Shown piece after piece: positions 4,427 through 32,478 of a DNA stretch of 35,709 nucleotides. Location of the stretch: assembly GCA_018648225.1 (NCBI GenBank), contig JABGRQ010000157.1:1-35709 (forward strand), written 5' to 3'. The notes under the pieces were generated by a model. That model saw only the letters and a program-made list of their open reading frames with translations, searched no databases and had not been told where the DNA came from. Source of the stretch: Chloroflexota bacterium (GTDB lineage Bacteria; Chloroflexota; Anaerolineae; Anaerolineales; UBA11858). Each line of letters opens with the position of its first letter. The first letter of the stretch is position 1. A program made the position numbers and the translations under genes.

Positions 4427-5350
4427 TTAGGGCAGCCAAGCCTTCCAGACATCTTCGTGGGCGTCCACCCAGGCCTGAGCGGCTTCTTCCACAGTCTTAC
4501 CATCGTTGAGCATAGCCAGCATCTCAATTTGGGCATCACTGCCGTAGCTCATATTGGCAAGGAAGGTATACACAGCGGCGTCTTTGTCTTTTAACCCTGC
4601 GCTGAAGATTTTCATCAAATTATCTTTGGGGTAAGCGCAATCCACCATCGCCGGATCAGCGTAGCACTCATCGCTATACGCGGGCAATTCTACCTGAGTC
4701 AGGTCAAACTGCTGGAAGATAGCGTGCGGCGAATAGAAGTAGAACAATACTGGTTCTTCGCGGCTATACGCAGAAGAAACTTCGGCCAGCAATGCATCTT
4801 CGGAGCCTGTCCACACGACCTGGAAGGGTAAACCCAGGTTGGCAATGATCTGCTCATCGTACTGCACCCAGCTCGGGTCTGCGCCCAGGAAGCGCCCCAA
4901 ATCACCGGTTTCAGCCGAAGCAAAATCAGCCGCTGCGTCAGCATAGCCTTCCCAGGTCGCCAAAGCCGGATTAGCTTCGATCACGTAGGAGGGCACGAAC
5001 CAGCCAATCTCGCCGACTGGGCCAAGCAGACCGCCATTCTCTACGGTGCCGAGGTTGTCAATATACTCGGCGATGCGCTCACCATGACCCGAAGGCCATA
5101 CTTCGAGATTGGCATCGGCATCACCAGCGGAGAGCGCGTCCCATTGGGCGTTCTCGTCCAGAGCAATGATTTCTACCGGGTTGCCAAGCTCTTTCTCAAC
5201 GATAATCTTGGCGACAGCTGCGTTCAGCTCTGAAGCAGGCCACGGATTTTCGATCATCGTGATGGTTGCTTTTTCTCCACCGCTGCTACAAGCAACAGCA
5301 AATACAGCCACCAGGAGGAGCAAGAAAACTACGGTTAACTTTCGAAACAT
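4427..5350 (-). CDS. Glycine betaine/choline ABC transporter substrate-binding lipoprotein
   Basis: A 307-residue OpuAC/ProX-family binding protein. It has a signal peptide with lipobox FAVAC (Cys21), so it is likely membrane-anchored outside the cell. The mature part carries the family pattern: MIENPWPASELNAAVAK near the start, LSAGDADANLEVWPSGHG, later PVLFYFYSPHAIF and a C-terminal helix around VEEAAQAWVDAHEDVWKAWL. Aromatic residues (several Trp and Tyr) could form the cage for a quaternary ammonium group. It is the last gene of the minus-strand importer operon, 132 nt after the permease, with AAAGGAG just before its ATG. Which ligand it prefers (betaine, choline or proline betaine) cannot be settled, but the divergent choline dehydrogenase makes choline plausible. 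Confidence 0.9.
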   Translation of the reverse strand: MFRKLTVVFLLLLVAVFAVACSSGGEKATITMIENPWPASELNAAVAKIIVEKELGNPVEIIALDENAQWDALSAGDADANLEVWPSGHGERIAEYIDNLGTVENGGLLGPVGEIGWFVPSYVIEANPALATWEGYADAAADFASAETGDLGRFLGADPSWVQYDEQIIANLGLPFQVVWTGSEDALLAEVSSAYSREEPVLFYFYSPHAIFQQFDLTQVELPAYSDECYADPAMVDCAYPKDNLMKIFSAGLKDKDAAVYTFLANMSYGSDAQIEMLAMLNDGKTVEEAAQAWVDAHEDVWKAWLP

Positions 5351-5482
5351 GTTTTTTCTCCTTTAGATTGATAACAGGGCTTGCGCATTTTATTGAAAAA
5401 GTACGCAGTCCTGCTTATAAATCGAGAAAGCTTTCGGCCTAAGCGTTCTTCACGCCCAGGCAGGCGCATCCTCGATGACCAC

Positions 5483-7594: not shown

Positions 7595-7596
7595 AA

Positions 7597-8613
7597 TCAG
7601 GACTCTGCCAGAGCCATCAACACCGTGTGCCGATCCAGCACACCGATGATTTCGTCGGCAGCATTGACCACCGGGAAAAGTGCATCCGTGGCGCTGATGC
7701 GCGGGATTAAGGCTTCAATGGTGGTATTGTATAAAACCGCCTCGCCAGAAAGGGCATTTTTGCCATCATGCGACAGCATAATCGTTTCGGCGGTGAGTAC
7801 TTTCGTGCGCGGCACATCTTGAGTAAACTCGCGCACATATTCATCCACAGGATGAGCCACAATTTGCTGCGCGGTGCCCACCTGAACGATAGCGCCGTCT
7901 TTCATAATCGCAATCCGGTCGCCCAATTTAATGGCTTCATGAAAATCATGCGTGATGAACAGAATCGTTTTGTGGAGTTCTTGCTGCAAGTTGAGGAGTT
8001 CATCTTGCATATCGCGGCGAATCAACGGATCGAGGGCGCTAAAGGGTTCGTCACACAGCATAATTTCAGGGTCCACCGCCAGGGCGCGCGCCAACCCCAC
8101 CCTTTGCTGCATCCCCCCGCTGAGTTCGTGCGGATAACGATCTTCCCAGCCATCCAGCCCGACAAGTTGCAAAATCTCATAGGCTTTCAAGCGCCGCTCA
8201 CTGACAGCCATTCCACGCACTTCAAGCCCGTAGGCCACATTATCCACCACCCGCCGGTGCGGAAACAGACCAAAACGCTGAAAGACCATGCTGACCGTAT
8301 GCCGCCGCAACTGGCGCAGGTCGTCCGCGTTCATGGCGGTGACATCCACATCGTCGATCAGCACCTGGCCCACGGTTGGCTCGATCAGACGCGAGAGGCA
8401 GCGCACCAAAGTCGATTTGCCGCTGCCCGACAACCCCATAACAACAAAAATTTCGCCCCTGGCAACCTCCAGCGAAACATCGCGCACAGCGACAACATGC
8501 CCGGTTTGGCTGAGTATCTCGCTGCGCGAGGCAGCCTGATCCATTGTATCGTACACATATTTTGGATTCGGGCCAAAGATTTTCCAAATATTACGAAGTT
8601 GAACAGTGCTCAT
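7597..8613 (-). CDS. Glycine betaine/choline ABC transporter ATP-binding protein (OpuAA/ProV type)
   Basis: A 338-residue ATPase that powers the importer. Walker A GLSGSGKST, signature LSGGMQQRVGLARAL, Walker B IMLCDEPFSALD and switch His in FITHDFHEA are all present. The N-terminal extension before the ATPase core (IFGPNPKYVYDTMDQAASRSEIL) is typical of ProV/OpuAA, where it helps build the first strands. The C-terminal part (about 270-338) looks like a single short CBS-like segment, ending GVLDRHTVLMALAES; longer homologues have two CBS modules that sense ionic strength. First gene of the transporter trio; only a weak AGGA precedes its ATG. It lies 141 nt downstream of the repressor gene on the same strand and could be read through from it or have its own promoter. 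Confidence 0.94.
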   Translation of the reverse strand: MSTVQLRNIWKIFGPNPKYVYDTMDQAASRSEILSQTGHVVAVRDVSLEVARGEIFVVMGLSGSGKSTLVRCLSRLIEPTVGQVLIDDVDVTAMNADDLRQLRRHTVSMVFQRFGLFPHRRVVDNVAYGLEVRGMAVSERRLKAYEILQLVGLDGWEDRYPHELSGGMQQRVGLARALAVDPEIMLCDEPFSALDPLIRRDMQDELLNLQQELHKTILFITHDFHEAIKLGDRIAIMKDGAIVQVGTAQQIVAHPVDEYVREFTQDVPRTKVLTAETIMLSHDGKNALSGEAVLYNTTIEALIPRISATDALFPVVNAADEIIGVLDRHTVLMALAES

Positions 8614-8653
8614 AAGCTGGTAATCCTAATTCGTAACGGCTCAGGCTAACACC

Positions 8654-8669
8654 CCTGTAGGGGTACAGG
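8654..8669. promoter_or_regulatory. Short perfect palindrome upstream of importer operon
   Basis: CCTGTA-GGGG-TACAGG, a perfect 6-bp inverted repeat with a 4-nt centre, lies about 41 nt before the ATPase start codon in the 141-nt gap between the repressor gene and the importer. It could be an operator or a leader hairpin. It differs from the palindrome before the choline dehydrogenase gene. No convincing promoter was recognised in the gap. Confidence 0.4.
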
Positions 8670-8754
8670 CGCCTTCACAGAGAGAATTCCGAAAAAAAGG
8701 TGGGGAGTCACGATTTATCATTCAATCAGGTTTGCAGGTACGAAAGTTGTGATA

Positions 8755-9336
8755 CTAATCGGGAATATTTTCCTTATGGGTTAAATCGAGAATCATGGCA
8801 ACAATTTTGTCGCGCCGTTCAACATCCGGCGGCGCATAGCGGTGCATTTCGGCAAACCACAGGCCATCGACAGCAAAGCGCACCAACATTGCCCAATCCG
8901 AATCCAGGCGGCAGGCGTCGATGCGCTTTTGCCAGGAAATATATTTATCACGCATAAGCCTGTGGGCGCTGGCATAGCGTTCTTCGGCAGCAAACAGGCT
9001 GGCATACAGGCTGACATTATCGGGATCGGACATTTGCTCAATCGAGGCTTTGGCATAGGCGCGCAGCCAGGCCCCGGGTTTGTCGCCTTCTTGTTCGGCT
9101 AATTCTTGTAAACGTTCTTCAAATTCATTATTATGGTATTCAAAAAGTCCTTCGACAAGGGCGGTCTTTGTGGGGAAATGGTACAGCAAGCCCCCTTTGC
9201 TCAAACCGGCCTCATCAGCGACAGCTTCCAGCGTCAAGTTTGCAAGACCTTCGTGTTGCAAGATACGGCTGCAAGCCTTGAAAATTTTCCGGCGGGTCTG
9301 AGATGCGGTCCGGTTTCTACGCACAAGTAACTCCAA
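8755..9336 (-). CDS. TetR/AcrR-family transcriptional repressor (BetI-like role)
   Basis: A 193-residue regulator with an N-terminal TetR helix-turn-helix: TRRKIFKACSRILQHEG, then LTLEAVADEAGLSKGGLLYHF (about residues 14-56), the classical recognition-helix pattern. The rest is an all-helical ligand domain with no membrane segments. It lies between the importer (same strand, downstream) and the choline dehydrogenase (divergent), which is the position of BetI in other bacteria, where it represses bet genes until choline is present. The C-terminal domain is not obviously close to BetI of proteobacteria, so the role rests mainly on context. Its likely operator is the perfect inverted repeat at 9510-9533, and it may also control itself through repeats at 9363-9425. 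Confidence 0.88.
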   Translation of the reverse strand: MELLVRRNRTASQTRRKIFKACSRILQHEGLANLTLEAVADEAGLSKGGLLYHFPTKTALVEGLFEYHNNEFEERLQELAEQEGDKPGAWLRAYAKASIEQMSDPDNVSLYASLFAAEERYASAHRLMRDKYISWQKRIDACRLDSDWAMLVRFAVDGLWFAEMHRYAPPDVERRDKIVAMILDLTHKENIPD

Positions 9337-9362
9337 TCAACTTCTGCCGATCTGGAATATAT

Positions 9363-9425
9363 TTTTAGCGATATTTTCCATAATCATAACAGCTTTCACC
9401 GCTAAACTATAGGAAATCGCTAAAA
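9363..9425. promoter_or_regulatory. Long-spaced inverted repeat in the repressor's own promoter region
   Basis: TTTTAGCGAT at 9363-9372 is repeated as its exact complement ATCGCTAAAA at 9416-9425, with 43 bp between them. A third related copy, CGCTAAA, is near 9399-9405. The block lies 27-90 bp upstream of the repressor gene in the divergent region, where its promoter must be. It is a candidate binding region for a regulator, unrelated in sequence to the operator at 9510-9533. Confidence 0.4.
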
Positions 9426-9475
9426 GAATTCCACGAAAACCCCAATAGTTTGTGAAATTTTCTACGATATGGGCA

Positions 9476-9505
9476 TTGACTTAACTAAATAATTGCGTCT
9501 ACAAT
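9476..9505 (+). promoter_or_regulatory. Sigma70-type promoter of the choline dehydrogenase gene
   Basis: -35 TTGACT (9476-9481) and -10 TACAAT (9500-9505) with 18-bp spacing. The expected start site, about 9511-9513, falls inside the adjacent operator. The start site is inferred, not measured. Confidence 0.75.
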
Positions 9506-9509
9506 AGAC

Positions 9510-9533
9510 ACTATACCATCTGGACGGTATAGT
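9510..9533. promoter_or_regulatory. Probable TetR-family operator overlapping the transcription start
   Basis: Perfect 8-bp inverted repeat ACTATACC / GGTATAGT around an 8-bp centre (ATCTGGAC). Outside it GACA and TGTC extend the symmetry with a one-base offset. Size and symmetry fit a TetR dimer site, and its place right after the -10 box fits repression by blocking polymerase. The neighbouring repressor is the obvious candidate ligand. Confidence 0.75.
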
Positions 9534-9739
9534 TGTCAATTCTAGTAGGCTTATGCAATCCGCTGAAAATTCCCACGCGGTGAAAGCCTTACTCATGAAG
9601 AGGCAAAACCCTGAAAATTCCGTAATTCCTCAGCGGGGGTAGGAATTTCCCCCTTCGAGGCGGGTTTTGCTACATCACGGAACCCACGCAACGATCTGCG
9701 GGGTATTCTGCAAAGCAGAATAAAGAGAGGCAGGCACAA
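9534..9739 (+). promoter_or_regulatory. Long structured 5' leader of the choline dehydrogenase gene
   Basis: About 205 nt lie between the likely transcript start and the ATG, with nested complementarity. Domain 1: AGGCTT (9547-9552) pairs with AAGCCT (9584-9589), enclosing CCGC (9560-9563)/GCGG (9577-9580). Domain 2: GCAAAACCC (9603-9611) pairs with GGGTTTTGC (9662-9670). Inside domain 2, AATTCCT (9624-9630)/AGGAATT (9641-9647) and GGGGG (9635-9639)/CCCCC (9649-9653) exclude each other. Domain 3: ATTCTGC/GCAGAAT (9705-9721) with an AAA loop, ending 2 nt before the AGAGAGG ribosome-binding site (9724-9730). CTGAAAATTCC occurs twice. I do not recognise a known riboswitch class. Confidence 0.5.
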
Positions 9740-11392
9740 ATGACAAATTCGAAGCAATATGACACCATTATTGTCGGCGGTGGTTCGGCGGGGTGTGTTT
9801 TAGCCAATCGCCTGAGTGCAGACAAAAACAACGCTGTACTGGTATTGGAGGCCGGACGCCCTGATTCCTGGTGGGATCTTTTTATTCAGATGCCCGCAGC
9901 GCTGACCTACCCCATCGGCAGCAAGCATTACGACTGGTGTTACGAATCGGAGCCGGAACCGTTTATGCACAACCGGCGCATTTATCAGGGACGCGGCAAA
10001 ATTCTGGGGGGATCCAGCAGCATTAACGGGATGATCTTCCAGCGCGCCAACCCGATGGATTACGAACGCTGGGCAGCTGATCCGGGTATGGAGGGGTGGG
10101 ACTATGCCCATTGTTTGCCTTATTTCCAGCGCATGGAAAATTCGCTGGCTGGGGGCGATGAGAAATTCCGCGGTTTCGATGGCCCATTGGTGCTGGAACG
10201 CGGCCCGGCGACCAACCCGCTCTTTACGGCTTTCTTCGAAGCTGTGCAACAGGCCGGGTATCCGCTGACCGATGATGTCAACGGGTATAAACAGGAAGGC
10301 TTTGCACCCTTTGACCGCAATATCCGCAAGGGACGCCGCATGAGCGCCTCGCGGACCTATTTGCACCCCGTTATGGATCGCCCCAACCTGGAGGTGCGCA
10401 CGCGCACCCTGGTGACCAGGATTCTCTTTGAGGGTAAACGTGCCGTCGGGGTGGAGGTATCCACACGGGGCAAGAAATCCGAAAAAATCTACGGGAAAGA
10501 TATTATTCTCAGCGGCGGGGCAATCAATTCGCCGCAACTGCTGCAACTCTCCGGGGTGGGCAATGCCGCCGAGTTGGCAGCTCTGGGAATTCCAGTCGTG
10601 CATGATCTACCGGGCGTGGGCGAAAATTTACAGGATCACTTGGAAGTATATGTGCAGTTTTCCTGCAAACAGCCCGTTTCGGTGTATCCGGCGCTGAAGT
10701 GGTATAACAAACCCTGGGTGGGTTTGCAATGGCTGCTTTTCAAGAAAGGCCCGGCGGCCAGCAACCACTTTGAAGGCGGTGGATTTGCGCGCAGCAATGA
10801 AGCTGTGGAGTATCCCAATTTGATGTTCCACTTCTTGCCGGTGGCGATCCGTTATGATGGCACATCGCCCAGCGGCGGACACGGGTATCAGGTGCATGTG
10901 GGCCCCATGTATTCGGATGCGCGCGGCTCGATCAAGATCAAATCGACAGACCCAACCGAGTATCCAGCGTTGCGGTTCAATTATCTTTCTACAGATCAGG
11001 ATCGGCGCGAGTGGGTTGAAGCCATTCATGTAGCGCGTAATATTCTCAACCAGCCTGCTTTCGAGCCTTATAACGCCGGCGAAGTTTCCCCCGGCCCATC
11101 GGTGAAAACGGATGAAGAGATTCTGGCCTGGGTCGGCCGCGATGGCGAGACGGCTTATCACCCCTCCTGTACCTGCAAAATGGGTACGGACGCGATGGCG
11201 GTGGTAGACCCGAATACGATGCGCGTGCATGGCGTGGAGGGGTTACGCGTGGTGGATTCTTCGGTGCTGCCTTACGTGCCCAATGCCAACAACTACGCCC
11301 CTACAATGATGCTGGCGGAGAAAGCCGCCGATCTGATTTTGGAAAATACGCCGCTGGTCGCCGATGTAGATTTTTACCGGCATAAGAAGTAA
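9740..11392 (+). CDS. betA: Choline dehydrogenase (GMC oxidoreductase)
   Basis: A 550-residue flavoprotein, close to the usual BetA length. N-terminal FAD site [17 protein letters not shown] (10-26) followed by VLEAGRP. GMC signature 1 is [20 protein letters not shown] (about 84-103), signature 2 is [15 protein letters not shown] (about 257-271). The C-terminal catalytic block has the conserved His in [11 protein letters not shown] and the Asn-rich [17 protein letters not shown]. BetA oxidises choline to betaine aldehyde and can often continue to betaine; no betaine-aldehyde dehydrogenase is seen here. It is transcribed alone, divergent from the repressor and importer, with a strong promoter, operator and terminator. 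Choline specificity over other alcohols is inferred from similarity and neighbourhood. Confidence 0.92.
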
Positions 11393-21230: not shown

Positions 21231-24200
21231 TTAGCCATTCTCGCCAGCCAGTCGGGCAATTTGAAGCGTGCAGTAGCGCACCATATCTTGCTTCTCTGGG
21301 GGGAGGGCGCTCTCTTCAATCTGGGCGATGCGTTCAACATCGTTCATCGCCCGGATGATGCTGACGGGTACTTCGATATCCCCTTCGGTGAATGAACTCA
21401 AGTATTCAATAGCGCCAATCAGGAAGTGGCGCATGTCGTCGTCGGCGCGCGCTGTGCGGAAGAATCCTGCCAGGGCTGGAGAAAGTTTGGTGTCACGCGC
21501 CAACATAAGGGGCGCATCCAATGCTCGTGATGTTGAGAAGGCATACAACGCGGTCGCCAATTCCGCAAAGCTTTGCACCCATTGATAGATCGATTCGCCC
21601 ATCACATCCCAAATCATCGAACGCCAGTGTGCAATCTGCGTAGGTTGATCGAGCAATTGGGCCACTTCAGCCTGCCATGTATCCGAAACGCGCCCGGAGA
21701 TGGGCTGCATGAAGGTGTCCAGATCAGTATTGAAGAGATTTTCCTGCAATAGCACTGCCAGGTCGGGTCGCAGGGTGGGCAGCAGATGCGGAATAAAGAC
21801 ATCATTGACAAAGAAATCGTTGACATCTACGCCGTGCCGTCGCAAAAGTTCCTGTTGGAACAAGGGTAAATAGTGATTCATTGCATCGCTATCTTCACGC
21901 AACGCCACAAAAGCCGAATTGCCCGCTGGGAAAGCAGTTTCAATATGACTAAGGTACTCACCACGCCAGTCCTGGTAAATGCGCAGGGTATTCAAAATTT
22001 CGTAAACCGGCAAATAAGGCAACAACCGTTCAGCAACCATGCGCTCACGCTCGGCTTCGGCAAAGTTCTTGCGAGCAAAGCGTTCTAATGAGCGAAATAG
22101 GCCGGTGGTGAGTTGGTTGATGCCCAGCACAACGGTTTGCGATTTATTATGCGAAATGGCGCGCAACAAACTGCCTTTTTTCGCCAAGGGGATGATCTCG
22201 GCGATATTTGCCAAAATCTGCTGTCCGCGATCTGTCCCCGTTCCGGATTTTCTTCTGGAAGTCGGACGGTCGCGCAGTTGCGGCATGGAACGGCCGATGA
22301 AATATGAAATGACGTGAATCCCAATCACGTCCTCATCGCGGCCGTAAGAGATATGGCGGAAATTCTCTGTTAATTCTGTCAGGAAACCTTCCATCAGGGC
22401 TTCCCTCATCCCAATGGTCAGACGTTCCAACTCGTGCAAGCTACGGCTTTGCGCTCCCAGGCGGCTTTCCGCAATCGTTTCCGCGGCGCGGATCAAATTT
22501 TCACGGTGACGGTGCTGTGCTTCCCGAATGTGATATTGCAAACCGACAAAATCGCGCACCCGCAAAAAACGTAGATGCTCAGAGATATTGCTCTGATACG
22601 TGCGTAAATCACCGCCCAGGAAAACGCCCTGCAACGGCGTAACGGCATACGCCGTGCTTTTACGTGCTGCTGCAGGTAAATTTGCCGCAAAACGACGGCG
22701 ATCATTTTCAGTATTGCCAAAAGCAAGTTTACCGGCAACACTTGAATAATAGCCGCCCTGACGCTGCATTGACTCACCACTGCCCAATTTGATGCGCACC
22801 GCATCTACTACGCCGTGTTCGGCCAGCCATGAATGTGTATCGTACTTGGCCTGACGATATAAATGCGCGGCATTGGCCTGGCTGACCTGCTGACTTAAAT
22901 CCGAACCCGCAATGAAAACTTCAGAAATAATTTCTTTAAAGCGCGCTTGTGATGCCTGCCCCGTATGTCGGCTCTGGGTCGCATAGTCCCACACCCGGTC
23001 GAGATACGAGCGAATATTGCTGACCGTATCAATATCTTCAAATAAAGGGATCAACCAAACGGGCGGAAGCTCCGCTGGGGAAAGATCGCGGCGCATTTGT
23101 TCGGCTTGAATGCGCATCTTGCGGTCAAGCGAAATTAACGCTTCTGGCTTTGACGACAAACTGATTTGCAATCCCAGCGTCATCCCAGGGTTGCCGTATT
23201 TCCCGGCGATGGTATTGATTTCGTAGATATTATAGGCCGTGGTATCAATAGCAAACGGATCGCGCGCCGTAATCAACCCCTGATTGATGCGCGGCGTCAG
23301 TACCATGCGCTGCAAAATATCGCGATAGCCCAACACTTCACGGAGCAACGGTTCCGCGGCACGGTTGTTCTGAATTTCAGGGATCAGGGCGTATAACTGC
23401 TTGCGCAGCGCTTTATTGAGTGAAAAATAAAACTCCATTGTTTCGCGGCGCTGCTGGCGCAGTTCAAACATTTTATGCTCGTAACGGTCATTATGCTGCC
23501 AAAGTACACGCGCCGGATCGCGGCGGAGATGCAGACGCGTTGCCCAGCGCTGCAAGGTTGTTGATTCCACCGAAAACGGCAAAATACCACGATAACGCTG
23601 TTCCAATTGATGCGTCAGGGTTGTAATTTCGTTTAGGAGCCTGGTAAAACGCTGGTTATGTTGTGACAAATCGGCAAGTTCGGCTTTTAGTGCGGGTTTG
23701 ATCCGCACATGTGGATCGGCCTGTTGCAGCGTATTCAGGATGCGCATCATGCGGCGCACATTTTCCATGACGACGGCCGACACCAGGCGATGTCCTTGCC
23801 CAGATGGACGGTTGCTGCCATCCCAATCGCTCCAAAATGACAAGAATGGGGACAAAGCCACATCGGAAAACAACCCGGCAAATTCTTCGCCGACAATCAG
23901 CGTGTTGAGATCGAGCAAGATTTCATCTACTTCTTGCTGCGAGTTAATAGCTACGTTCAGCCCGATATATTCCTTGAGCAATTCCTGTGCGGCTTGTTCA
24001 ATCTGTGCATTTGTGATCGGCCTCCCGGCGATCAGGGCGTTGACGACCGCATCCAGCGCCATTTCAGCCTGTAACGAATAGGATTGCGTAGGGTGAACAG
24101 TGCGATCATAGGTACGCAACCTGAATTGTTCTTGCCGCCGCTGAAGCGAATCTTTCATAAATTCCCGCTCCAGACGCTCGACCAGCCACCGGCCACTATC

Positions 24201-26846
24201 ACTTGCTTTACGCATTAGTTCGTCATAGATTGCCACACGATCCAATAAACGGTTCCCGAACACGTCCAGACGTTCGGGAATATACGATTGCAAAAACTCC
24301 CTTTGCAACTGTTGGGTATCTAACGGGCGCAGGGTCATCAACCGCTGAGACGAGCGGCTATTTTCGCAAGTTTGGAACAGGCGTTTCCCAAAGGCTTCCC
24401 ATGCTCGTGAAAGATCGAGTGAACGGCTGCGACCGCGCGCAGAAACCTTGAAGATCACTTGCTTGCGGTTATAACGCGCGTCTTCTTCGGCAATCAGGCG
24501 ATTGAGATCAATTAACAAACGACGGGTTTTACCGAGCAATACATCGGCATTATCTTTGCCCCCCAGCGTCAGGCGGAAGGTTGCCCGGCCCGTTTCAAAG
24601 CCCTTTTCGGTACGAGCAAATGTAGAGAGTGGCAACATCCCGATGCCGCTACGCGCCAAAGATGAAGCCAACCAAGATAGAGATAGCCCCGCAGGTAAGC
24701 GATTTACCCGTAAGAGGGGATACAAACTCCCCGTGGGGGGGATGATTTTCAGCCCAAAGGGGTTACGGTCCGAGGGTAAGTTCTTCGCAGCTCGAAGAAG
24801 AGCCTGCGTCCGCTCGTAGAGAATCGAGTTGCGCAGATGCCAAAAAGCGCGCGTGGCCTGCGTTGAACTGCGATAAAACAAATAGCTGATGAAAATAGCG
24901 GCAATATTGGGCCGGATGTGGGAATTGAGCGCGTTAAAACGCTCGCGGATCTGCCGGTCACGAATTTCGACGACCGCTAGTCTGGCCCCGGCGTAACTAT
25001 CCGTCTTCGACATGGAATGCACCGAGATCACGCGATCAGCCTGCGCTGCTGTGATCGCCCCATGTCGTACCAGTTCGGCAGCAATCTGGCGAACGGTCTT
25101 AATTTCCGGCAATTCGCACACCGGAGCAACATTCTGGTAGGCCAGATCATCAACCACATAGATATTATTTCGCAGGCAATACGTGACCAATCGGCGGGTG
25201 TCAGTATCATCGAAGATTTGGCCGGTGGCGTTATGCGGATTATTAACCGCTACCGCGCCGCGCTGCAGCCAGGATGCATCTTCCTGACAGAGTTGCTCTA
25301 TTTTTTGGATGATGCCGTCTACATCCAACCCCAAAGATTCCGACAATGGCACGGGGTAGGTTTTGACAAAGCACTGTTCGTAAGACCAACTCAGGTCGGG
25401 AATTACCACTTCTGAGACACCACAATGAAAGCCCAGAATGCTCAAAGCGGTGCGCGATGATCCGCTAACCACGGAGCAGGCTTCGGGCTGATATTGCGGC
25501 TGATGTTTGATAAAGGCGGCCAAAAAACTACGCTGCAAGGCATTGATCCATGCGGGGTGGTGTGCGTTGAGAACGAGTGCATCGAGCAGTTCATCAGTTT
25601 TTAGTTCGGTGAACTCATCGAAGATGTACCCCTTCCACGCATGCTGAATCCTGCCAGCCAGTACAGCCGCTTTTTCTTCTACCGCCCTCAGGGATTTGGC
25701 TAATGTTTGGGCACGCCGATCCACTAATTTTTCCAGGCGCTGTTCCGCCCGTTCCGCCAAATCGGGTAAAACCGTCTCCGCTGTAATTCCTAATCCTAAT
25801 CCTTCAAAAGCTGGTTTTGCATAAGGTACATCATCTGGAATTTTTGCCTGAAGTGTTGCCAGATTTTGTGTGAGCAAAAAGTCGAGAAATTCGGCTTCAG
25901 CCGCGGAGGGGGTGCCCTTAAGATTGAAATGCACGTTTTCGATGACACTCAGAAAATCGGCGTTCCCAACGATGAATACAGTAGGCAAACTGTGCAACCG
26001 TTTCGCAAATACGGCAGGGGTCAGCAGGCGGATAACTCGCTGCACAAGTTTGGCTTCACGCGCCAAAGAGAGATGGTTGGGCGCGTTGTTGGCCTCGATA
26101 AAAAACAGAAGCTTTTCAATGCTCAGCAGGCGCAACTTGCGCCGCGTAACTTCATCGAGCAGGCCGCCAATCAGCATAAAGGTCGGCATGTTGAGCTGAT
26201 CGTTAAAGGACTGCTCGATTTGCACCAGGGCTGTTTGCTCGTCGTCGGCCAGATCATCAAAAAGCAGATTGGGGATCGTCTTTAGCTGGGGCTGGAGTTC
26301 GCACTGATAGCTGATGATACGCGCCGGGGTGAACTCCAAATAAGACGACAAGGCAAACAAGATGATGCGCAGCATTTCGTGATTGCCGCCCATGCCAATA
26401 ATAATTTCACGTTTGCCCGATTTTTCGCCCGTGTCGTAATCGATCGGCTCCTGCTGATTTTCCAGCCAGGCGCGGAAGGCGTCAATGAGGGCGTGGGGCT
26501 TCTTGCGCGAATATCCACCCCGGGGCATATATGGCGCACTTTTCTGAATTGTGCGAATCAAAAATTCAAGTTTTGGCTTGTCTTCGGCCTTCCAACCAAG
26601 ATATTCTAAAATTGCGTCGGGGTCGGCGTCGTGCAGCTCTTCGCGATGAATATCGATGCCCAGTGCCGTGCGCAAATAAGCCGATGATATGCTCACATCC
26701 TGCACCGGGTTCCCGATGTGGAAATTAACGCGCTCTTCATCGGGAACTGGCGCCGCGGCAGTAGATTCGCTGATCTCCGAAACGCGTGCCACGCGGATCG
26801 GCTTGAGGCGAAAACTGGCCTGAGGGTCAAATGGATGGGCTTTCAT
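21231..26846 (-). CDS. Giant fusion: PLP aminotransferase-like region plus divergent PEP carboxylase-like region
   Basis: An 1871-residue protein, by far the largest here. Residues about 35-430 look like a first, degenerate aminotransferase unit (FHIGNPVQD near 42, KREIIIGMGGNHEMLRIIL near 145). Residues about 430-790 hold an active-looking fold-type I aminotransferase: NNPHNATG (535-542), VVDDLAYQ (564-571) and the PLP Lys614 in SVHSMSKTDSYAGAR. From about 870 the chain resembles phosphoenolpyruvate carboxylase over its length: TVHPTQS (His918), WSDWDGSNRPSG (near 1000), IPLFEDIDT (near 1265), FIAGSD (near 1312) and GSGESMQRQGG (near 1352). By hand alignment the usual catalytic Arg of DIRQES, Lys of SDSxKD, and His and first Arg of FHGRGG are replaced. 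Start is the ATG at 26846 (GGAAG ahead); a GTG at 26870 lies inside a repeat. Stands alone, convergent with the exporter. Confidence 0.8.
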   Translation of the reverse strand: MKAHPFDPQASFRLKPIRVARVSEISESTAAAPVPDEERVNFHIGNPVQDVSISSAYLRTALGIDIHREELHDADPDAILEYLGWKAEDKPKLEFLIRTIQKSAPYMPRGGYSRKKPHALIDAFRAWLENQQEPIDYDTGEKSGKREIIIGMGGNHEMLRIILFALSSYLEFTPARIISYQCELQPQLKTIPNLLFDDLADDEQTALVQIEQSFNDQLNMPTFMLIGGLLDEVTRRKLRLLSIEKLLFFIEANNAPNHLSLAREAKLVQRVIRLLTPAVFAKRLHSLPTVFIVGNADFLSVIENVHFNLKGTPSAAEAEFLDFLLTQNLATLQAKIPDDVPYAKPAFEGLGLGITAETVLPDLAERAEQRLEKLVDRRAQTLAKSLRAVEEKAAVLAGRIQHAWKGYIFDEFTELKTDELLDALVLNAHHPAWINALQRSFLAAFIKHQPQYQPEACSVVSGSSRTALSILGFHCGVSEVVIPDLSWSYEQCFVKTYPVPLSESLGLDVDGIIQKIEQLCQEDASWLQRGAVAVNNPHNATGQIFDDTDTRRLVTYCLRNNIYVVDDLAYQNVAPVCELPEIKTVRQIAAELVRHGAITAAQADRVISVHSMSKTDSYAGARLAVVEIRDRQIRERFNALNSHIRPNIAAIFISYLFYRSSTQATRAFWHLRNSILYERTQALLRAAKNLPSDRNPFGLKIIPPTGSLYPLLRVNRLPAGLSLSWLASSLARSGIGMLPLSTFARTEKGFETGRATFRLTLGGKDNADVLLGKTRRLLIDLNRLIAEEDARYNRKQVIFKVSARGRSRSLDLSRAWEAFGKRLFQTCENSRSSQRLMTLRPLDTQQLQREFLQSYIPERLDVFGNRLLDRVAIYDELMRKASDSGRWLVERLEREFMKDSLQRRQEQFRLRTYDRTVHPTQSYSLQAEMALDAVVNALIAGRPITNAQIEQAAQELLKEYIGLNVAINSQQEVDEILLDLNTLIVGEEFAGLFSDVALSPFLSFWSDWDGSNRPSGQGHRLVSAVVMENVRRMMRILNTLQQADPHVRIKPALKAELADLSQHNQRFTRLLNEITTLTHQLEQRYRGILPFSVESTTLQRWATRLHLRRDPARVLWQHNDRYEHKMFELRQQRRETMEFYFSLNKALRKQLYALIPEIQNNRAAEPLLREVLGYRDILQRMVLTPRINQGLITARDPFAIDTTAYNIYEINTIAGKYGNPGMTLGLQISLSSKPEALISLDRKMRIQAEQMRRDLSPAELPPVWLIPLFEDIDTVSNIRSYLDRVWDYATQSRHTGQASQARFKEIISEVFIAGSDLSQQVSQANAAHLYRQAKYDTHSWLAEHGVVDAVRIKLGSGESMQRQGGYYSSVAGKLAFGNTENDRRRFAANLPAAARKSTAYAVTPLQGVFLGGDLRTYQSNISEHLRFLRVRDFVGLQYHIREAQHRHRENLIRAAETIAESRLGAQSRSLHELERLTIGMREALMEGFLTELTENFRHISYGRDEDVIGIHVISYFIGRSMPQLRDRPTSRRKSGTGTDRGQQILANIAEIIPLAKKGSLLRAISHNKSQTVVLGINQLTTGLFRSLERFARKNFAEAERERMVAERLLPYLPVYEILNTLRIYQDWRGEYLSHIETAFPAGNSAFVALREDSDAMNHYLPLFQQELLRRHGVDVNDFFVNDVFIPHLLPTLRPDLAVLLQENLFNTDLDTFMQPISGRVSDTWQAEVAQLLDQPTQIAHWRSMIWDVMGESIYQWVQSFAELATALYAFSTSRALDAPLMLARDTKLSPALAGFFRTARADDDMRHFLIGAIEYLSSFTEGDIEVPVSIIRAMNDVERIAQIEESALPPEKQDMVRYCTLQIARLAGENG

Positions 26847-26864
26847 TACAATGGGCTTCCAAGG

Positions 26865-26940
26865 GGACACGGATGACGCGGCTTAGGCGGATTTTTTAAT
26901 TATTTATCCGCGCTAATCTGTTAAATCCGCGTCATCGGCG
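26865..26940. repeat. Palindromic intergenic repeat ('acggatgacgcgg' type)
   Basis: Outer arms ACGGATGACGCGG (26869-26881) and CCGCGTCATCGGCGT (right end) are near-complementary, with inner ATCCGC/GCGGAT copies and an AT-rich centre. It fills nearly the whole gap between the SPFH gene and the giant gene, and is a different family from those at 1-75 and 1734-1796. Confidence 0.8.
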
Positions 26941-26942
26941 TT

Positions 26943-27923
26943 CTATTTATCTTTGGAATCGCTCTTTGCTTCCAGGGCGCGTTGCATCAAAGTTTGGAAA
27001 ACACTCAATAACTCAGACCCATGCGCCAGTTCTTGCGGTGTAAATGAGACAATGGTGCGGGCATTCTTCAAGTTTTGGCTGGCTTCGGCCAGACGGGCGG
27101 CCTGTGGCGTCAGCATCAGCAGTTCAGGGCTGCTCTTGAGTACGTCAAGTTCTTCCTTCTCAAAAGCGAGACGCATCCGGTTGCGCTCCAATTCATCTTC
27201 AAGACCTTTCTGAGCCAGCACTGACTCTTTTCCGAGCAGAGTCCCCTTCAAAACCAGATTTTTCATCTCAAGCTCGTGTTCCATTTGCGAAATTTCTTCA
27301 TCAGCCTGAATTTTCGCTTTAGCAGCGGCCGAGCGCGCCTGATGACTCAAACGTTCGGTTTGCTCTAGCAAGCGCGCCTGTTCTTGCTGGCGCAGCGCTT
27401 CGCCAATCTCCGGGTCGGTCGGTTCCAGCGACTGAATGGCCAGCGAAATCAACTCGACGCCGAATTTTTCTTCGATAAGCGTCGAGCGCGCGTTCAAATA
27501 GCTCAAAATTTCGGTCGATGAAAGCGCGTGAATCTCACATTTTTCGATATATTCTTTAACCAGCCCCTGAAGCAGAACTTGCACTTCATCGGCAACGCGC
27601 GCGACGGCTTCCGTGTTCCACCCGCCGATGCGGATCAACGCGGGAATATGCTCAAGCGAGGGTGCAACCGAACCCACCAGTTTAATGCGCACTTCCAGAT
27701 TGCCAACGGCGGCCGCTTCTAACGTCAAACGAATCGGGCTGGTGGTGCGTTCAAGCGGCAAACTAAGATGCCGCGGGTAAACCAATCCTTTGCGAATTTG
27801 GATCTGCCCATTGGCTTCATAAAGAAATAAATAATCAGGCTTCCGTATGCGATATTCAAATAAAACCAGCAATACCAAAACACCGACAACCACCCCGGTA
27901 AGAATTCCAATTGTGTTATCCAT
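26943..27923 (-). CDS. SPFH/Band 7 domain membrane protein
   Basis: A 326-residue protein: one N-terminal membrane helix (about 7-25, GILTGVVVGVLVLLVLF), an SPFH/prohibitin-like domain (about 30-180) containing VELISLAIQSLEP, then a long charged coiled coil (about 183-260, rich in Glu, Gln, Arg and Lys) and a tail with repeated Leu and Ala. SPFH proteins form ring-like assemblies on membranes and often regulate proteases or stabilise membrane domains. It lies upstream of the giant gene on the same strand; only a palindromic repeat separates them, so they may share a transcript. No NfeD-type partner is adjacent. Confidence 0.82.
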   Translation of the reverse strand: MDNTIGILTGVVVGVLVLLVLFEYRIRKPDYLFLYEANGQIQIRKGLVYPRHLSLPLERTTSPIRLTLEAAAVGNLEVRIKLVGSVAPSLEHIPALIRIGGWNTEAVARVADEVQVLLQGLVKEYIEKCEIHALSSTEILSYLNARSTLIEEKFGVELISLAIQSLEPTDPEIGEALRQQEQARLLEQTERLSHQARSAAAKAKIQADEEISQMEHELEMKNLVLKGTLLGKESVLAQKGLEDELERNRMRLAFEKEELDVLKSSPELLMLTPQAARLAEASQNLKNARTIVSFTPQELAHGSELLSVFQTLMQRALEAKSDSKDK

Positions 27924-28001: not shown

Positions 28002-28790
28002 CTAAATTTGGATAGTGGATTCAACACCTGGAATATATCCACTTTTCCAAAGGGAGGTTCCAATTTGCACGGCGCTGGCTCCCGCCTTCAGCATGATTTC
28101 TACCTCCGAGGCGGATCGCACACCCCCGGCCCCAATCACAGGGAGTCCAGCCCGCGCGAGTTGTTCCACCGCCCGCAGCGCCAGCGGAAAAATCGCCGGG
28201 CCATTAAGCCGTCCACTAACCCTCACCCCCGACCCCTCTCCCTCATAGGGAGAGGGGAGCAAGCCGCGTGGCGCGCCCAAACTGACCGCGCTGGCTCCAG
28301 CATCCACGGCCGCTTGCGCCAATATCAGGCTGCCATCCAGGGGTACACGCACCAACACCGGAAGTTCACCCAGCGCTGCTTGTGCAAATTGCGCCGCGAG
28401 GCTGGCATCCGCATCAGGGGGCAGGCCCACTTCAATTCCCATCACGCTCCCCGCGCCTTCAATCCGCTCAACCATCCAGCCCAATTCATCCGGATTCTGC
28501 GCCAAGAGATGCACAATCACCGGCAAAGAAGCTGAAGCCCAATAGCGTCCATAGCGCCGGAGGGCTTGCGACAAACCGGGGTTGGGCAAACCCGTATGCA
28601 GCAAGAATCCACCCGGAAAGGGTATATAACGCGTGCCTTTGGCTGGCGTGCGCGGCAAACGGCTGATGGGATTCGTGACAAAAGCGCCAAAGCGCGAGAA
28701 ATCCAGCGGGCTGTGCGGATCGGGGAAAAAGCCCAGCATCCCGGCGGCATTCATGAGGGGTTGAGCGAAAAAGAAATCTGTTTTGGGCAT
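28002..28790 (-). CDS. Dihydroorotate dehydrogenase-like FMN barrel protein, key residues changed
   Basis: A 262-residue TIM-barrel protein with the general order of class 1 dihydroorotate dehydrogenase: NAAGMLGF near the start, a middle strand PVLVRVP, GASAVSLGAPRG, GRLNGPAIFPLALRAVEQL, then the FMN-phosphate site PVIGAGGVRSASEVEIMLKAGASAVQIGTSLW. The usual N-x-S-C-P-N loop with catalytic Cys is replaced by IEVGLPPDAD, and the Lys of 'iKl' reads VRV, so true dihydroorotate oxidation is doubtful. A palindromic repeat is inserted in frame (28213-28262). I use the ATG at 28790; a GTG at 28802 is also open. It is the last gene of a minus-strand group that begins with a PyrK-like protein, which suggests an enzyme/electron-transfer pair. 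Confidence 0.75.
   Translation of the reverse strand: MPKTDFFFAQPLMNAAGMLGFFPDPHSPLDFSRFGAFVTNPISRLPRTPAKGTRYIPFPGGFLLHTGLPNPGLSQALRRYGRYWASASLPVIVHLLAQNPDELGWMVERIEGAGSVMGIEVGLPPDADASLAAQFAQAALGELPVLVRVPLDGSLILAQAAVDAGASAVSLGAPRGLLPSPYEGEGSGVRVSGRLNGPAIFPLALRAVEQLARAGLPVIGAGGVRSASEVEIMLKAGASAVQIGTSLWKSGYIPGVESTIQI
28213..28262. repeat. Palindromic repeat inserted in frame inside the DHOD-like gene
   Basis: CCCCTCTCCC (28233-28242) pairs perfectly with GGGAGAGGGG (28248-28257) around TCATA, preceded by CCCTCACCCCCGAC. On the gene's strand it reads LLPSPYEGEGSGVRV, a translation often seen where this repeat family enters coding sequence. The insert lies in the loop after SLGAPRG and before the conserved GRLNGPAI block, without breaking the frame. 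Confidence 0.8.
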
Positions 28791-28810
28791 CGTAATAAAC
28801 ACAGTGATAA

Positions 28811-28860
28811 GTTACAAGTTGAAGGTTACACGTTGAACTTTCAACCTGCAACCTTCAACC
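28811..28860. repeat. Palindromic repeat ('gttacaagttgaaggtt' type, copy 1)
   Basis: GTTGAAGGTT (28818-28827) and AACCTTCAAC (28850-28859) are exactly complementary; an inner GTTGAA/TTCAAC pair lies between them. It fills the gap between the deacetylase and DHOD-like genes and overlaps the last codons of the deacetylase gene. The element at 32481-32562 is of a related type. Confidence 0.8.
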
Positions 28861-29581
28861 GATAAATTTCAAGAACATCTACCAGCCTATCATCCAGCAA
28901 TCCTATCACCCGATGCAGCCCCTCCACCTTCATCAACACTTCCGGGACACTCAACTGCCGCCCGGCACGTTTCGATGAACGGCGCACGAAAAGCGCATTC
29001 TGAGTGCGATGGCAATAAGCCGCGGCGGCTTTTTGCTCGAAGGCTGCGCTAATGTCAAGAATCAAGTCGGCAGGATCATCGGTATTGGCGAGACGCGGGC
29101 GCGGGTGTTCGGGGAAACTCGGCGAGAAGGTGTAGAGCGAGATGCCATCTGGCATGGCCGCGATCACCGCCCGATGCGTAAGCACATGCGCCGGATGACC
29201 GTACTCGCCATTCGAGCCGTGAGTAATCACCGCATCAGGGCAAAGTTGCTGGATATAGTCACGCAGGCGTTGCATCAGTTCGTCAAAATCGTCGGTGTAG
29301 GGGTGCAGTTCTTCATTCTCGCCGACGGTAGGGTCAATATAATCAAGAAACTCAACACTTGTGCCGCCCAGAGCTTGCGCGGCGCAGCGCATCTCCTGTT
29401 CGCGCACGCGGCCTAATTCGGGGCGTTCACAAAGCGGGGGTTCGCCCAACTCGCCGCCTTCGCCCCGCGTAGCACAAAGAACATGCACATTGGCTCCGGC
29501 ACGCGCCAGCAAAGCCAGTGTTCCGCCACAAAGGATGGTTTCATCATCAGGATGAGCGACAACAGCCAAAATCTTATTCAT
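28841..29581 (-). CDS. PIG-L/LmbE-family deacetylase
   Basis: A 246-residue zinc-dependent N-deacetylase. The N-terminal metal motif AHPDDE (residues 9-14) is preceded by MNKILAVV and followed by GGTLALLARAG. The later HGSNGEYGHPAHVLTHRAV carries the third ligand His in GHPAH. Family members deacetylate N-acetylglucosamine-linked substrates, for example in mycothiol or bacillithiol biosynthesis or glycolipid maturation; which applies is unknown. It overlaps the CAP-domain gene by 8 bp. Its last codons (ending RLKVAG) lie inside a palindromic repeat, so the native C-terminus has probably been replaced by repeat sequence. Confidence 0.9.
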   Translation of the reverse strand: MNKILAVVAHPDDETILCGGTLALLARAGANVHVLCATRGEGGELGEPPLCERPELGRVREQEMRCAAQALGGTSVEFLDYIDPTVGENEELHPYTDDFDELMQRLRDYIQQLCPDAVITHGSNGEYGHPAHVLTHRAVIAAMPDGISLYTFSPSFPEHPRPRLANTDDPADLILDISAAFEQKAAAAYCHRTQNALFVRRSSKRAGRQLSVPEVLMKVEGLHRVIGLLDDRLVDVLEIYRLKVAG

Positions 29582-30587
29582 CAGAAACCAGCATCATCAC
29601 CAGATCACTGGCGGGGATATTTTCGCCATTCAGGACAACCCAAATGCGAAGATGATAATACCCCGACTGTGCGTTGCCCGGCAGAATCATGCGCAGCTTA
29701 TAATCGCCATTCCAGTCCAATGTCGCAGGGATTTGATCCACAAACTCAGCAGGAGATGTATAAGTGGATGTGTCGTTTAACGCCGAAATGCTCATTGGAG
29801 ATGGCAGCGGCTCAAATGCCAGATTGATGAGGGGTTGACTCACCCCAGGAAGTAATTCAAATTTGATAATAATCAACTCGCCGGGATGCGCTGTAAAAAC
29901 ATTTCCATCAGCATCGGTATGAAGCACCAAATACTGATTGGTAAACTCCTGCGCCACGCGGAATTCACCGCTCAGGGGATCATAGGCCATCCCCACGCCA
30001 ACATGCGTATGTTCCGGTGTAAGAATATTCGCCCGATGGCCGGGGCTGTTCATTAAGGCTTCCTGGGCTTCACGTACACGCGCAGCCCAATTTGCTTCCC
30101 AAACCGGGCTGCCATCATCATAGCGGCTATAGTATGAATACACATTTTCCATAACGACAGCCTGCCCACCGGACAGGCCATAGCGAATATCTGGGCCCAG
30201 CCCGGCCAGGTTCCAATGCGACATATAGCCAGCATTCGCCATTTCTTGCGCATGTTGGCGGCCAACTTCAGCCGCGTGTGCATCCCACTGAACTGGCTCT
30301 AAACCTTCAGCAACCCTGTCTACATTAATAAGTTCAAGCATATAAGCCGCAAGGGCATCAAGATCGGGGGTGTCACCCACTATGACAGGTGCAACCGGCG
30401 TGGGGTAAGGTGTGGGTGTGAAATTAGGGGGTGGCGGAGTGTCTACGAATAAATCTAACACTTCTGGCTTCGTTTTGATGCCAAAATAGGCCAGCGCCAA
30501 TCCCCCGGCAAGCCAAAATAACCAGCCGATGCGTATTTTACGGCTTCTTGCTCGTCGCTTCTTTCGTCGTTTTTGTTTACGTGCCAT
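29574..30587 (-). CDS. Membrane-anchored CAP/SCP-domain protein
   Basis: A 337-residue protein. The very basic N-terminus (MARKQKRRKKRRARSRK) precedes a membrane helix (about 20-40), then a Pro/Thr-rich linker (PPPPNFTPTPYPTPVAP). The CAP domain (about 75-220) has the family marks: MLELINVDRVAEGLEPVQWD, a His in VGRQHAQEMA, GYMSHWNLAG, ENVY, and NSPGHRANILTPEHTHVGVGMAY. A C-terminal beta-type domain of about 110 residues follows. CAP proteins act outside the cell; their bacterial function is mostly unknown. Second gene of the minus-strand group, 6 nt after the PyrK-like gene. Confidence 0.9.
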   Translation of the reverse strand: MARKQKRRKKRRARSRKIRIGWLFWLAGGLALAYFGIKTKPEVLDLFVDTPPPPNFTPTPYPTPVAPVIVGDTPDLDALAAYMLELINVDRVAEGLEPVQWDAHAAEVGRQHAQEMANAGYMSHWNLAGLGPDIRYGLSGGQAVVMENVYSYYSRYDDGSPVWEANWAARVREAQEALMNSPGHRANILTPEHTHVGVGMAYDPLSGEFRVAQEFTNQYLVLHTDADGNVFTAHPGELIIIKFELLPGVSQPLINLAFEPLPSPMSISALNDTSTYTSPAEFVDQIPATLDWNGDYKLRMILPGNAQSGYYHLRIWVVLNGENIPASDLVMMLVSDE

Positions 30588-30593
30588 ATTTGA

Positions 30594-31277
30594 TTACCAT
30601 TGTAATTGCTTCAAATCCAACACTGGGCCATCTTTGCAAGCCAATTTATAGCTTTTGCGGGCGGGAACAGCGCATACGCCGCACTCGGCCAGCGCGCCGC
30701 AAGGCATGGGGGAGATAATTAATGTCTGGGCTGTGCAGGCCGGGCGTTCGTGCGGGGCCAATCCCAGGATCGTACGCAACTTGGGCAATATTTCAATTGT
30801 CAGTTCGAGAGCCAAGAAATCGGCCCAGGGTATGGCTTCGGGCAAATCCGCGAGGCGGCGAACTTCAACGGAGACGGGGAGATCGGGCAAGGCCGCATCT
30901 GTAAAAATGGCAATATCGGCTTGCGGGTTTTGGTGGATCAGGGGCAGCAGACGTGCCAACCCGCCGCCGAGGGAGGCCAAAGCGATATGACTGGTCTCCG
31001 CCGGGAGGTTGAATCCGTGCCCGAGGGGTCCGCGTAGATCAAGCTCTAGCCCAGGGAGCCAGTGTTTCGGTGGGAGCGTTGGGCTTTGCAGAATCACCTC
31101 AGGGGCAGAACCCACCCGAAAAAGAGGAACCGCCAAAACGGAGTCCGCTGTACCATCATCGGCGAGCAGATATTGCCCTGGAGCGGGGGTCAACGCTGAA
31201 GAACAATCCACGCGTAGCAACAAATTGTCATCAAATCCGTATATGATCTCAGAGATGCGTCCTTTGCCGTTTTGCAT
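30594..31277 (-). CDS. PyrK-like [2Fe-2S] electron-transfer subunit
   Basis: A 227-residue protein of the ferredoxin-reductase type used by class 1B dihydroorotate dehydrogenase. The C-terminal cluster motif is clear: MPCGALAECGVCAVPARKSYKLACKDG-like cysteines in C-x6-C-x2-C-x11-C order, followed by GPVLDL as in PyrK. A flavodomain-like LRGPLGHGFNL and an NAD-site-like LGGGLARLLPLI are present, but the usual RP[FI]S FAD motif is not seen (the segment reads VLAVPLFRVG). First gene of the minus-strand group whose last gene is a DHOD-like barrel, so they may form a complex with a modified function. No other pyrimidine genes are close. Confidence 0.82.
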   Translation of the reverse strand: MQNGKGRISEIIYGFDDNLLLRVDCSSALTPAPGQYLLADDGTADSVLAVPLFRVGSAPEVILQSPTLPPKHWLPGLELDLRGPLGHGFNLPAETSHIALASLGGGLARLLPLIHQNPQADIAIFTDAALPDLPVSVEVRRLADLPEAIPWADFLALELTIEILPKLRTILGLAPHERPACTAQTLIISPMPCGALAECGVCAVPARKSYKLACKDGPVLDLKQLQW

Positions 31278-31380: not shown

Positions 31381-32478
31381 ATGAATGTTACTGTTGCTAT
31401 TTCTGCAATTGCTGGTCTGGCCTGGTTGGCCGTTGTTGGCCTGCTCGCTTTTATTGTAATGCGTGCGTCCCGACAAAAACCAGTCAAAGGTATGGTTACT
31501 ACGCTCATTGTTATCTTGCTACTGGCAGTAATTTTAAATACGGCCAGCGCCGGGTTGATTTTCATAGAGCCACAGGAACGCGGTGTGGTGATCTCGGCTA
31601 TTCAAGATGGTATCCGCCCGGAGGCTTTGCAGCCTGGTTTGCGCTGGGTGGTACCTTATTTCGAAAGTGTCATCACGTACCCGATTTCGCGCCAAACCTA
31701 TACCATGTCGATCGCTTCCGAGGAGGGTCAAATACAAGGTGATGACTCGGTTGAAGCGCGCACATCGGATGGGCAGGTTGTCCTAATTGATGCTTCGATC
31801 ATCTTCGTCATTGACCCCGCCGAGGTTGTCGATGTGCATGTCAAGTGGCAAGATCAATATATCAACAACCTGGTGCGCCCGCAATCGCGCGGTGTGATCC
31901 GAGATGCGGTTTCACAGTTCGGCATCGAAGAAGTTTACAGCTCCCAACGCCTGGTGTTGACCGAGATGATGACCACCCAAATGGCCGAAACAATGGAAGA
32001 AGGCGGCCTGATATTGGTAGACTTCATCTTGCGCAATATCACTTTTTCGGACGAATATGCCGCTTCGGTTGAACAAAAACAGATCGCTGAGCAATTAGCG
32101 CAACAAGCTTTCTTTGTTGTTGAACAGCGTAAACAAGAAGCTGAACAGGCCCGTCAAACCGCAGAAGGCAGCGCCGATGCCGCGGTGATTCGCGCCCAGG
32201 GTGAAGCCGACTCGCTGTTGATTAACGCCCAGGCTCTGGCTGATGCGCGCATCATCCAGGCGCAGGCTGAGGCAGAAGCCTTGCAATTGATCGCCGATGT
32301 GATAAAAAATAGCCCGGATTTGCTGACGTACCGCTATATCGAGGAATTAACCCCCAGCATTGATGTGATGCTGCTGCCCAGCGACAATCCGTTCTTATTC
32401 CCGTTGCCGGAAATGAATAACACCCAACCAGCCACTGTGCTACCGGTCACGCCGGATACTGGAACCGAAAGCCCGTAG
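31381..32478 (+). CDS. Prohibitin-like SPFH/Band 7 family membrane protein
   Basis: A 365-residue protein with two N-terminal hydrophobic segments (about 5-27 and 38-60), followed by a full SPFH domain (about 60-240). IEPQERGVVIS begins it, with GLRWVVPYFESVITYPISRQ and the prohibitin-like region VRPQSRGVIRDAVSQFGIEEVYSSQR. A coiled coil follows (about 235-300, alternating Ala, Gln and Glu), and the tail is Pro/Thr-rich. It resembles bacterial prohibitin/HflK/HflC proteins, which form large rings around membrane proteases such as FtsH. Start has AAGGAG (31366-31371). It is followed by selD after a palindromic repeat. A second SPFH gene lies 3.5 kb upstream on the other strand, of a different subfamily. 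Confidence 0.9.
   Translation: MNVTVAISAIAGLAWLAVVGLLAFIVMRASRQKPVKGMVTTLIVILLLAVILNTASAGLIFIEPQERGVVISAIQDGIRPEALQPGLRWVVPYFESVITYPISRQTYTMSIASEEGQIQGDDSVEARTSDGQVVLIDASIIFVIDPAEVVDVHVKWQDQYINNLVRPQSRGVIRDAVSQFGIEEVYSSQRLVLTEMMTTQMAETMEEGGLILVDFILRNITFSDEYAASVEQKQIAEQLAQQAFFVVEQRKQEAEQARQTAEGSADAAVIRAQGEADSLLINAQALADARIIQAQAEAEALQLIADVIKNSPDLLTYRYIEELTPSIDVMLLPSDNPFLFPLPEMNNTQPATVLPVTPDTGTESP

Follow-up and report, generated by a model that had tools for sequence, protein, structure and literature searches.

The window (the whole stretch of 35,709 nucleotides analysed here) carries, on its minus strand, a very large gene in which an intact PLP aminotransferase is fused to a region with the fold of phosphoenolpyruvate carboxylase (PEPC). 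This fusion is real and conserved. A preliminary description of the same DNA had reported the uninterrupted frame of 1871 residues, which our analysis bears out and places on the minus strand (the strand had been left unstated), and had missed the gene immediately upstream, which encodes an SPFH-type protein and is the obligate partner of the fusion. The coordinates of the genes, domains and key residues are collected in Table 1.

Gene content of the window

The frame of the fusion can be extended to an alternative GTG start at 26870 (21231..26870, minus strand, 1879 aa), and all residue numbers given here are counted from this GTG, so that the lysine formerly described as Lys614 becomes K622. 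Since the alignments with homologues start near residue 9-15 in this numbering, the ATG at 26846 is the likelier start. A Pfam scan of the window protein recognised the aminotransferase family PF00155 alone, the remainder of the fusion having no naming match in Pfam, NCBIfam or PADLOC.

Elsewhere in the window, an apparent glycine-betaine/choline cluster can be read from the sequence (4427-11392), with a substrate-binding protein, an ATPase, a TetR-type regulator, a choline-dehydrogenase-like GMC oxidoreductase and a 703-aa protein with the appearance of two ABC permeases joined in one chain. At 28002-31277, a PIG-L deacetylase and a CAP-like protein lie between a dihydroorotate-dehydrogenase-like gene and a gene resembling the DHODH-B Fe-S subunit, an order which is the same at locus L033 and which recurs at L024 without the CAP-like gene. 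Additionally, an ordinary Band_7/SPFH protein (31381-32478, PF01145 E=2.9e-31) is encoded a few genes away from the divergent partner of the fusion.

Table 1. Features of the fusion gene and its partner (window positions; residues counted from the GTG).
Feature	Position	Strand	Basis and remarks
Partner, 326-aa SPFH/Band-7-like protein	26943..27923	-	Immediately upstream of fusion, same strand
Intergenic spacer (partner to fusion) with stable hairpin in window genome	26871..26942	-	MFE -26.6 kcal/mol, z=-5.2
Fusion gene	21231..26846	-	1871 aa from ATG at 26846; open uninterrupted frame
Domain 1, predicted degenerate aminotransferase-like unit without PLP lysine	25821..26828	-	Residues 15-350; model topology, weak profile match
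Long helix joining domains 1 and 2	25635..25769	-	About residues 368-412; model secondary structure
Domain 2, PLP fold-type-I aminotransferase, complete active site	24471..25613	-	Residues 420-800; PF00155, hhalign, Foldseek, invariance
Codon of PLP lysine K622	25005..25007	-	39/39
PEPC-fold region (low-confidence model)	21234..24338	-	Residues 845-1879; Foldseek, weak Pfam matches, motif order
DRTVHPTQ, H926 = catalytic His138 of E. coli PEPC	24084..24107	-	Most alignments; 39/39
E1278 = metal ligand E506	23037..23039	-	All alignments; 39/39
D1324 = metal ligand D543	22899..22901	-	All alignments; 39/39
GSGESMQRQGG loop; R1370 = R587 kept, R581 replaced by S1364, H579 by L1362 just before the loop	22752..22784	-	Alignments; conservation
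LRAI (R1570), probable R713 equivalent	22155..22166	-	3/5 alignments; archaeal-type PEPC has PRAI
C-terminal ENG tail, cf. NTG tail of PEPC	21234..21242	-	Aligned; terminal Gly 39/39

Conservation and distribution of the fusion

The genome scan returned 30 loci, nearly all in Anaerolineae/Chloroflexota MAGs together with one MAG labelled Bacteroidetes (L032), many of these loci being full-length and 58-89% identical. Overall, fusion homologues are 48-89% identical, and 39 sequences (the window protein and 38 further ones) could be aligned end to end. All homologues of sufficient length to show both halves have both, and 350 columns, covering both active sites, are invariant across the 39 sequences and two deep clades; the fusion is therefore not due to chance. 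An assembly artefact, or a fusion private to the window genome, is ruled out for practical purposes by the 38 further end-to-end homologues, which come from independent assemblies (several of their contigs exceed 100 kb), so that the two parts are not joined in the window assembly only. In three loci (L124, L125 and L029) the gene is split into at least two frames, by an assembly frameshift or by true breakage.

The tree of the 39 sequences separates a second clade (support 1.0) from the Chloroflexota-type clade, within which the L032 copy is the deepest branch. L032 belongs to Bacteroidetes bacterium SKW296, among whose relatives the second clade is found instead; its placement is due either to transfer from one phylum to another or to a wrong label on the MAG. 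Within the sampled part of the genome collection, the fusion occurs in 7 of the 151 genomes of the order and in 3 of the 400 genomes of the phylum sample, and matches to it, nearly all of the more divergent form, were found in 25 of 100 relatives of the L032 genome (G538). The literature searched held no paper on such a fusion, nor on its pairing with the partner protein.

The aminotransferase domains

The preliminary description had read a PLP-aminotransferase core with its lysine in the window sequence, and this is borne out for domain 2, both by PF00155 (residues 449-770, E=2.5e-19, 70.1 bits against a cut-off of 19.7) and by the invariance of N547, D575, Y578, K622, R630 and R766 in 39/39 homologues. 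The domain also matches aminotransferases in the hhalign comparison (p=4e-23), and its model matches solved aminotransferases in Foldseek with an E-value of about 1e-13; no equivalog model reached its cut-off for the aminotransferase part.

Domain 1 has no sequence match in Pfam or the PDB, and we assign it as a putative degenerate aminotransferase-like unit mainly by its predicted topology: the order of strands and helices in its model is that of the aminotransferase large domain, and its profile similarity to aminotransferases is weak (p=0.022, against 0.18 for the reversed control). In aminotransferases, the segment around Tyr70 is donated to the neighbouring subunit. Domain 1 contains an invariant PYMPRGG motif (Y114 in 39/39) resembling this segment, and may supply it to domain 2, which shows no obvious segment of its own. 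Because the Tyr70-like segment is found only in the domain that lacks the lysine, and is absent from the active one, this arrangement suggests that the two domains form an active/degenerate pair within the same chain.

The PEPC-fold region

The template-free AlphaFold2 model of the C-terminal region, which predates the second clade, is of low confidence (pLDDT 56.1, pTM 0.53). Compared with the PDB by Foldseek, this model nevertheless has PEPC structures, and these only, at ranks 1-15 (E from 7e-5 to 2e-3, over 1003-1103 alignment columns), the following rank being an unrelated protein with E=1.1. The TM-scores of the PEPC matches are low (0.16-0.21), as expected for a poorly packed model, and so the support for the fold lies in local structure and its order, and not in a global superposition.

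At the sequence level the similarity is marginal. When 29 homologues were scanned with Pfam, the lowest E-values were 0.0014 for PEPcase_2 (PF14010) and 0.0093 for PEPcase (PF00311); PF14010 matched two of the 29, and the window protein matched neither PF14010 (curated cut-off 25 bits) nor PF00311 (curated cut-off 22.4 bits). A PF00311 search of the genomes gave matches inside the fusion frame of two of them (G571 and G581), at PEPC positions 465-604 and with 17.6-18.7 bits, which is below the cut-off. The top entry of the PDB profile search was a PEPC (3odm), aligned at the PLFE metal-ligand motif with a non-significant E=0.71. The hhalign comparison with bacterial PEPC gave p=0.073 with 23 sequences and p=0.023 with 39 (in the latter case the reversed profile gave 0.17, and a higher score was reached by one of 30 column-permuted controls), and that with a single archaeal-type PEPC was non-significant (p=0.2). 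From the sequence of the window protein alone, homology to PEPC could thus not be proved, given that this protein has no Pfam PEPC match and that the profile scores are marginal. The PEPC motifs previously picked out by eye (TVHPT, WDG..RP, PLFED, AGSD and GSG...R.GG) do occur in order and are conserved. Taken with the ranking of the low-confidence model, this points to a full-length and very divergent PEPC fold, in line with the PEPC-like sequence noted in the preliminary description.

Active-site residues of the PEPC-fold region

Residues were mapped onto E. coli PEPC with five MAFFT variants and hhalign, and later with a three-way alignment. All of the former agree on H138=H926, E506=E1278, D543=D1324 and R587=R1370, and on the replacement of K546 by Q1327, H579 by L1362 and R581 by S1364; R699 corresponds to R1535 in four of five alignments and R713 to R1570 in three of five. 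The three-way alignment agrees in the central block, with H138 misplaced in one of its three variants. H926, E1278, D1324, R1370, R1570 and G1879 are invariant in 39/39 sequences, and the replacements are family-wide as well (K546 by Q in 39/39, H579 by L, M, F or I, and R581 by S or C). The pattern reported earlier for the window alone, in which the Lys of SDSxKD and the His and first Arg of FHGRGG are substituted and the His of TAHPT is kept, consequently holds across the 39 homologues. For the position of R396 (DIRQES) the alignments disagree, giving no stable equivalent.

The preliminary description had weighed these substitutions against an ordinary carboxylase function, and it is here that its interpretation has to be revised: the true fusion and the PEPC fold stand, and the view that the substitutions mark a lost or changed activity is not supported, as K546, H579 and R581 are also replaced in archaeal-type PEPC (by Met, Leu and Ala/Cys, in ORF L077 and in the solved chain 3odm). 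Three elements are regarded as crucial for PEPC (PMC3894211): a catalytic His, an Arg that binds PEP, and the catalytic peptide at the C-terminus. The fusion retains the first two and, of the third, the terminal Gly. The metal ligands of PEPC are one Glu and one Asp (PMC10176493), both kept in the fusion. The Arg of the archaeal ARSD motif is a Gly in the fusion. Since archaeal-type PEPC shares the substitutions and the crucial residues are kept, the substitutions are a weak argument against PEPC activity, albeit no proof of activity; judged from the alignments, the case for an altered active site appears weaker than it did at first.

The SPFH-type partner

The partner protein has an N-terminal hydrophobic (putative membrane) segment and a coiled-coil-like region. 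Its gene lies directly upstream of the fusion in all 41 checkable loci, i.e. in 23/23 of the first set (22 plus L044) and in 18/18 of the second clade (those with upstream sequence), and is the only conserved neighbour in the neighbourhoods compared. Within the order, it was also found in exactly the 7 of 151 genomes that have the fusion. Around the second clade, four apparent exceptions to co-occurrence (G556, G572, G619 and G646) were discarded: in three of them the missing gene would lie past the end of the contig, and both genes are present in G646.

By its own sequence, the window partner is not a clear Band_7 member (12.2 bits with PF01145, below the cut-off of 23.6), and the assignment is settled only through the second clade, three of whose partners (L119, L122 and L111) score above this cut-off with 26.0-26.6 bits. 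Additionally, the partner profile compared with four SPFH references gave p-values of 0.003-0.03 (0.15-0.27 for the reversed controls). The most conserved stretch of the partner, SPELLxLTPQAxRLAEASQxLKxART, is C-terminal (residues 265-290) and might serve as the docking site of the fusion. Proteins of the SPFH family assemble into rings or cages, for the most part on membranes (PMC12624060), and in bacteria many of them are paired in operons with a dedicated partner, such as NfeD or ClpP-NfeD (PMC2636767); in the literature searched, there was no SPFH protein with a metabolic enzyme as operon partner.

As for the hairpin in the spacer between the two genes, its 22-base left end occurs once in the genome, so by this test it is not an abundant repeat. 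An Rfam search gave no match.

Standard PEPC in the carrier genomes

The window genome has no PF00311 or PF14010 match, and therefore no separate standard ppc, though many other carriers have one. In particular, a standard PEPC is present in 18 of the 31 Chloroflexota-type carriers (a set which includes the genome of L032), in 28 of the 151 genomes of the order overall and in two of the 22 genomes tested around the second clade. As those 18 carriers have both proteins, replacement of the standard PEPC by the fusion was rejected as a general rule; the fusion is not simply the anaplerotic PEPC of the cell, and a second PEPC alongside a standard one needs a special reason.

Possible functions

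The fusion, the fold, the kept and lost residues, the operon and the co-occurrence are computed results. From them we infer, tentatively and at somewhat less than an even chance, a membrane-tethered carboxylase-transaminase, with the conversion of PEP to oxaloacetate and then to aspartate as the simplest case; activity, substrates, domain pairing and tethering all belong to this proposal. The fusion would be the enzyme of a conserved operon of two genes, and its active domain 2 would probably pair with the degenerate domain 1 within one chain. The PEPC-fold region would most likely make a 2-oxo acid (in the simplest case oxaloacetate, from PEP and bicarbonate), which the aminotransferase would immediately turn into the corresponding amino acid (aspartate). 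The SPFH-type protein would anchor or scaffold the fusion at the membrane, presumably by binding it physically. Counted against this proposal are the low confidence of the C-terminal model, the marginal or non-significant profile p-values, the Gly in place of the ARSD Arg, the lack of a stable R396 equivalent, the coexisting PEPC and the dependence of the domain 1 assignment mainly on predicted topology. In its most far-reaching form, which we consider unlikely, the carboxylase-transaminase would represent a third PEPC lineage, bacterial-type in size but archaeal-type in several residues of the active site, joined to a transaminase of its own (itself an in-chain active/degenerate pair) and held at the membrane by the SPFH protein. 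It would then be a synthase making aspartate from PEP, and the first known case of a metabolic enzyme as obligate SPFH operon partner.

The same active site can be read in other ways. A PEPC-fold enzyme with changed chemistry, acting on a non-phosphorylated keto acid (for instance as a decarboxylase, a hydrolase or in an aldolase-like manner) and coupled to an aminotransferase that makes or consumes this acid, is possible if still on the unlikely side: the three replacements are fixed family-wide, the archaeal ARSD Arg is absent too, family-specific invariant motifs (SDWDG..RPSGQGH, LW.HNDR.E and GDLRT.Q) suggest a remodelled pocket, and a normal PEPC coexists in many genomes. The fact that archaeal-type PEPC has the same three positions substituted, and that the PEP-binding Arg, the catalytic His and the C-terminal Gly are kept, nevertheless speaks against this reading. 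If the replacement of K546, H579 and R581, as compared with bacterial-type PEPC, were instead a sign of lost catalysis, the region could be a regulatory pseudo-carboxylase, binding PEP, aspartate or another metabolite and controlling the aminotransferase or SPFH assembly, in keeping with the frequent presence of a standard PEPC and with the obligate membrane-scaffold partner; we hold this to be improbable, given that two deep clades show no variation at all in the catalytic His, in either metal ligand, in R1370 or in the C-terminal Gly, which is unusual for a dead site.

Less probable again is a stress, signalling or phage-conflict cassette, whose enzymatic product would be an effector and not a part of housekeeping metabolism. 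The patchy distribution in the order and in the phylum sample and the partner gene as sole conserved neighbour would fit such a cassette, but PADLOC has no match for either protein and the viral contigs searched contain no relative.

The fusion adds to the PEPC-fold proteins a form outside the bacterial/plant and archaeal types. Its active site combines features of the two, and is therefore informative as to which residues of PEPC are truly required for carboxylation. If the proposed carboxylase-transaminase is correct, carbon fixation chemistry would be coupled to transamination in one chain, and an SPFH protein would gain a defined enzymatic partner, making the function of bacterial SPFH assemblies testable in a two-gene system.

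Comparison with known systems

With bacterial/plant-type PEPC (PF00311), the C-terminal region has in common the fold (as far as the low-confidence model indicates), the length of about 1000 residues, the motif order, the equivalents of H138, E506, D543 and R587, probably those of R699 and R713, and the C-terminal Gly tail; it differs in the replacement of K546, H579 and R581, in its sub-cut-off Pfam score, in the aminotransferase ahead of it and in the SPFH partner. Archaeal-type PEPC (PF14010; 3odm) is likewise non-bacterial at the three replaced positions, and its motifs TPR, PLFE, ARSD, GxG....R and PRAIS correspond, in the same order, to TPR, PLFE, AGSD, GSG....R and LRAIS in the fusion. 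Nevertheless, archaeal-type PEPC is about 490-560 aa long (55-60 kDa; PMC8100219), a size which the PEPC region of the fusion exceeds, with about 1035 residues.

Concerning the aminotransferase part, domain 2 has the complete fold-type-I active site of class I/II PLP aminotransferases (PF00155). In serine palmitoyltransferase, the lysine-less subunit LCB1 and the active PLP subunit LCB2 form one active site (PMC3794620), which is a possible analogy for domains 1 and 2, with the difference that LCB1 and LCB2 are two chains and the fusion is one. Finally, the operons of SPFH proteins with NfeD or ClpP-NfeD likewise join an SPFH/Band-7-like protein to a conserved operon partner, whereas here this partner is a giant metabolic enzyme.
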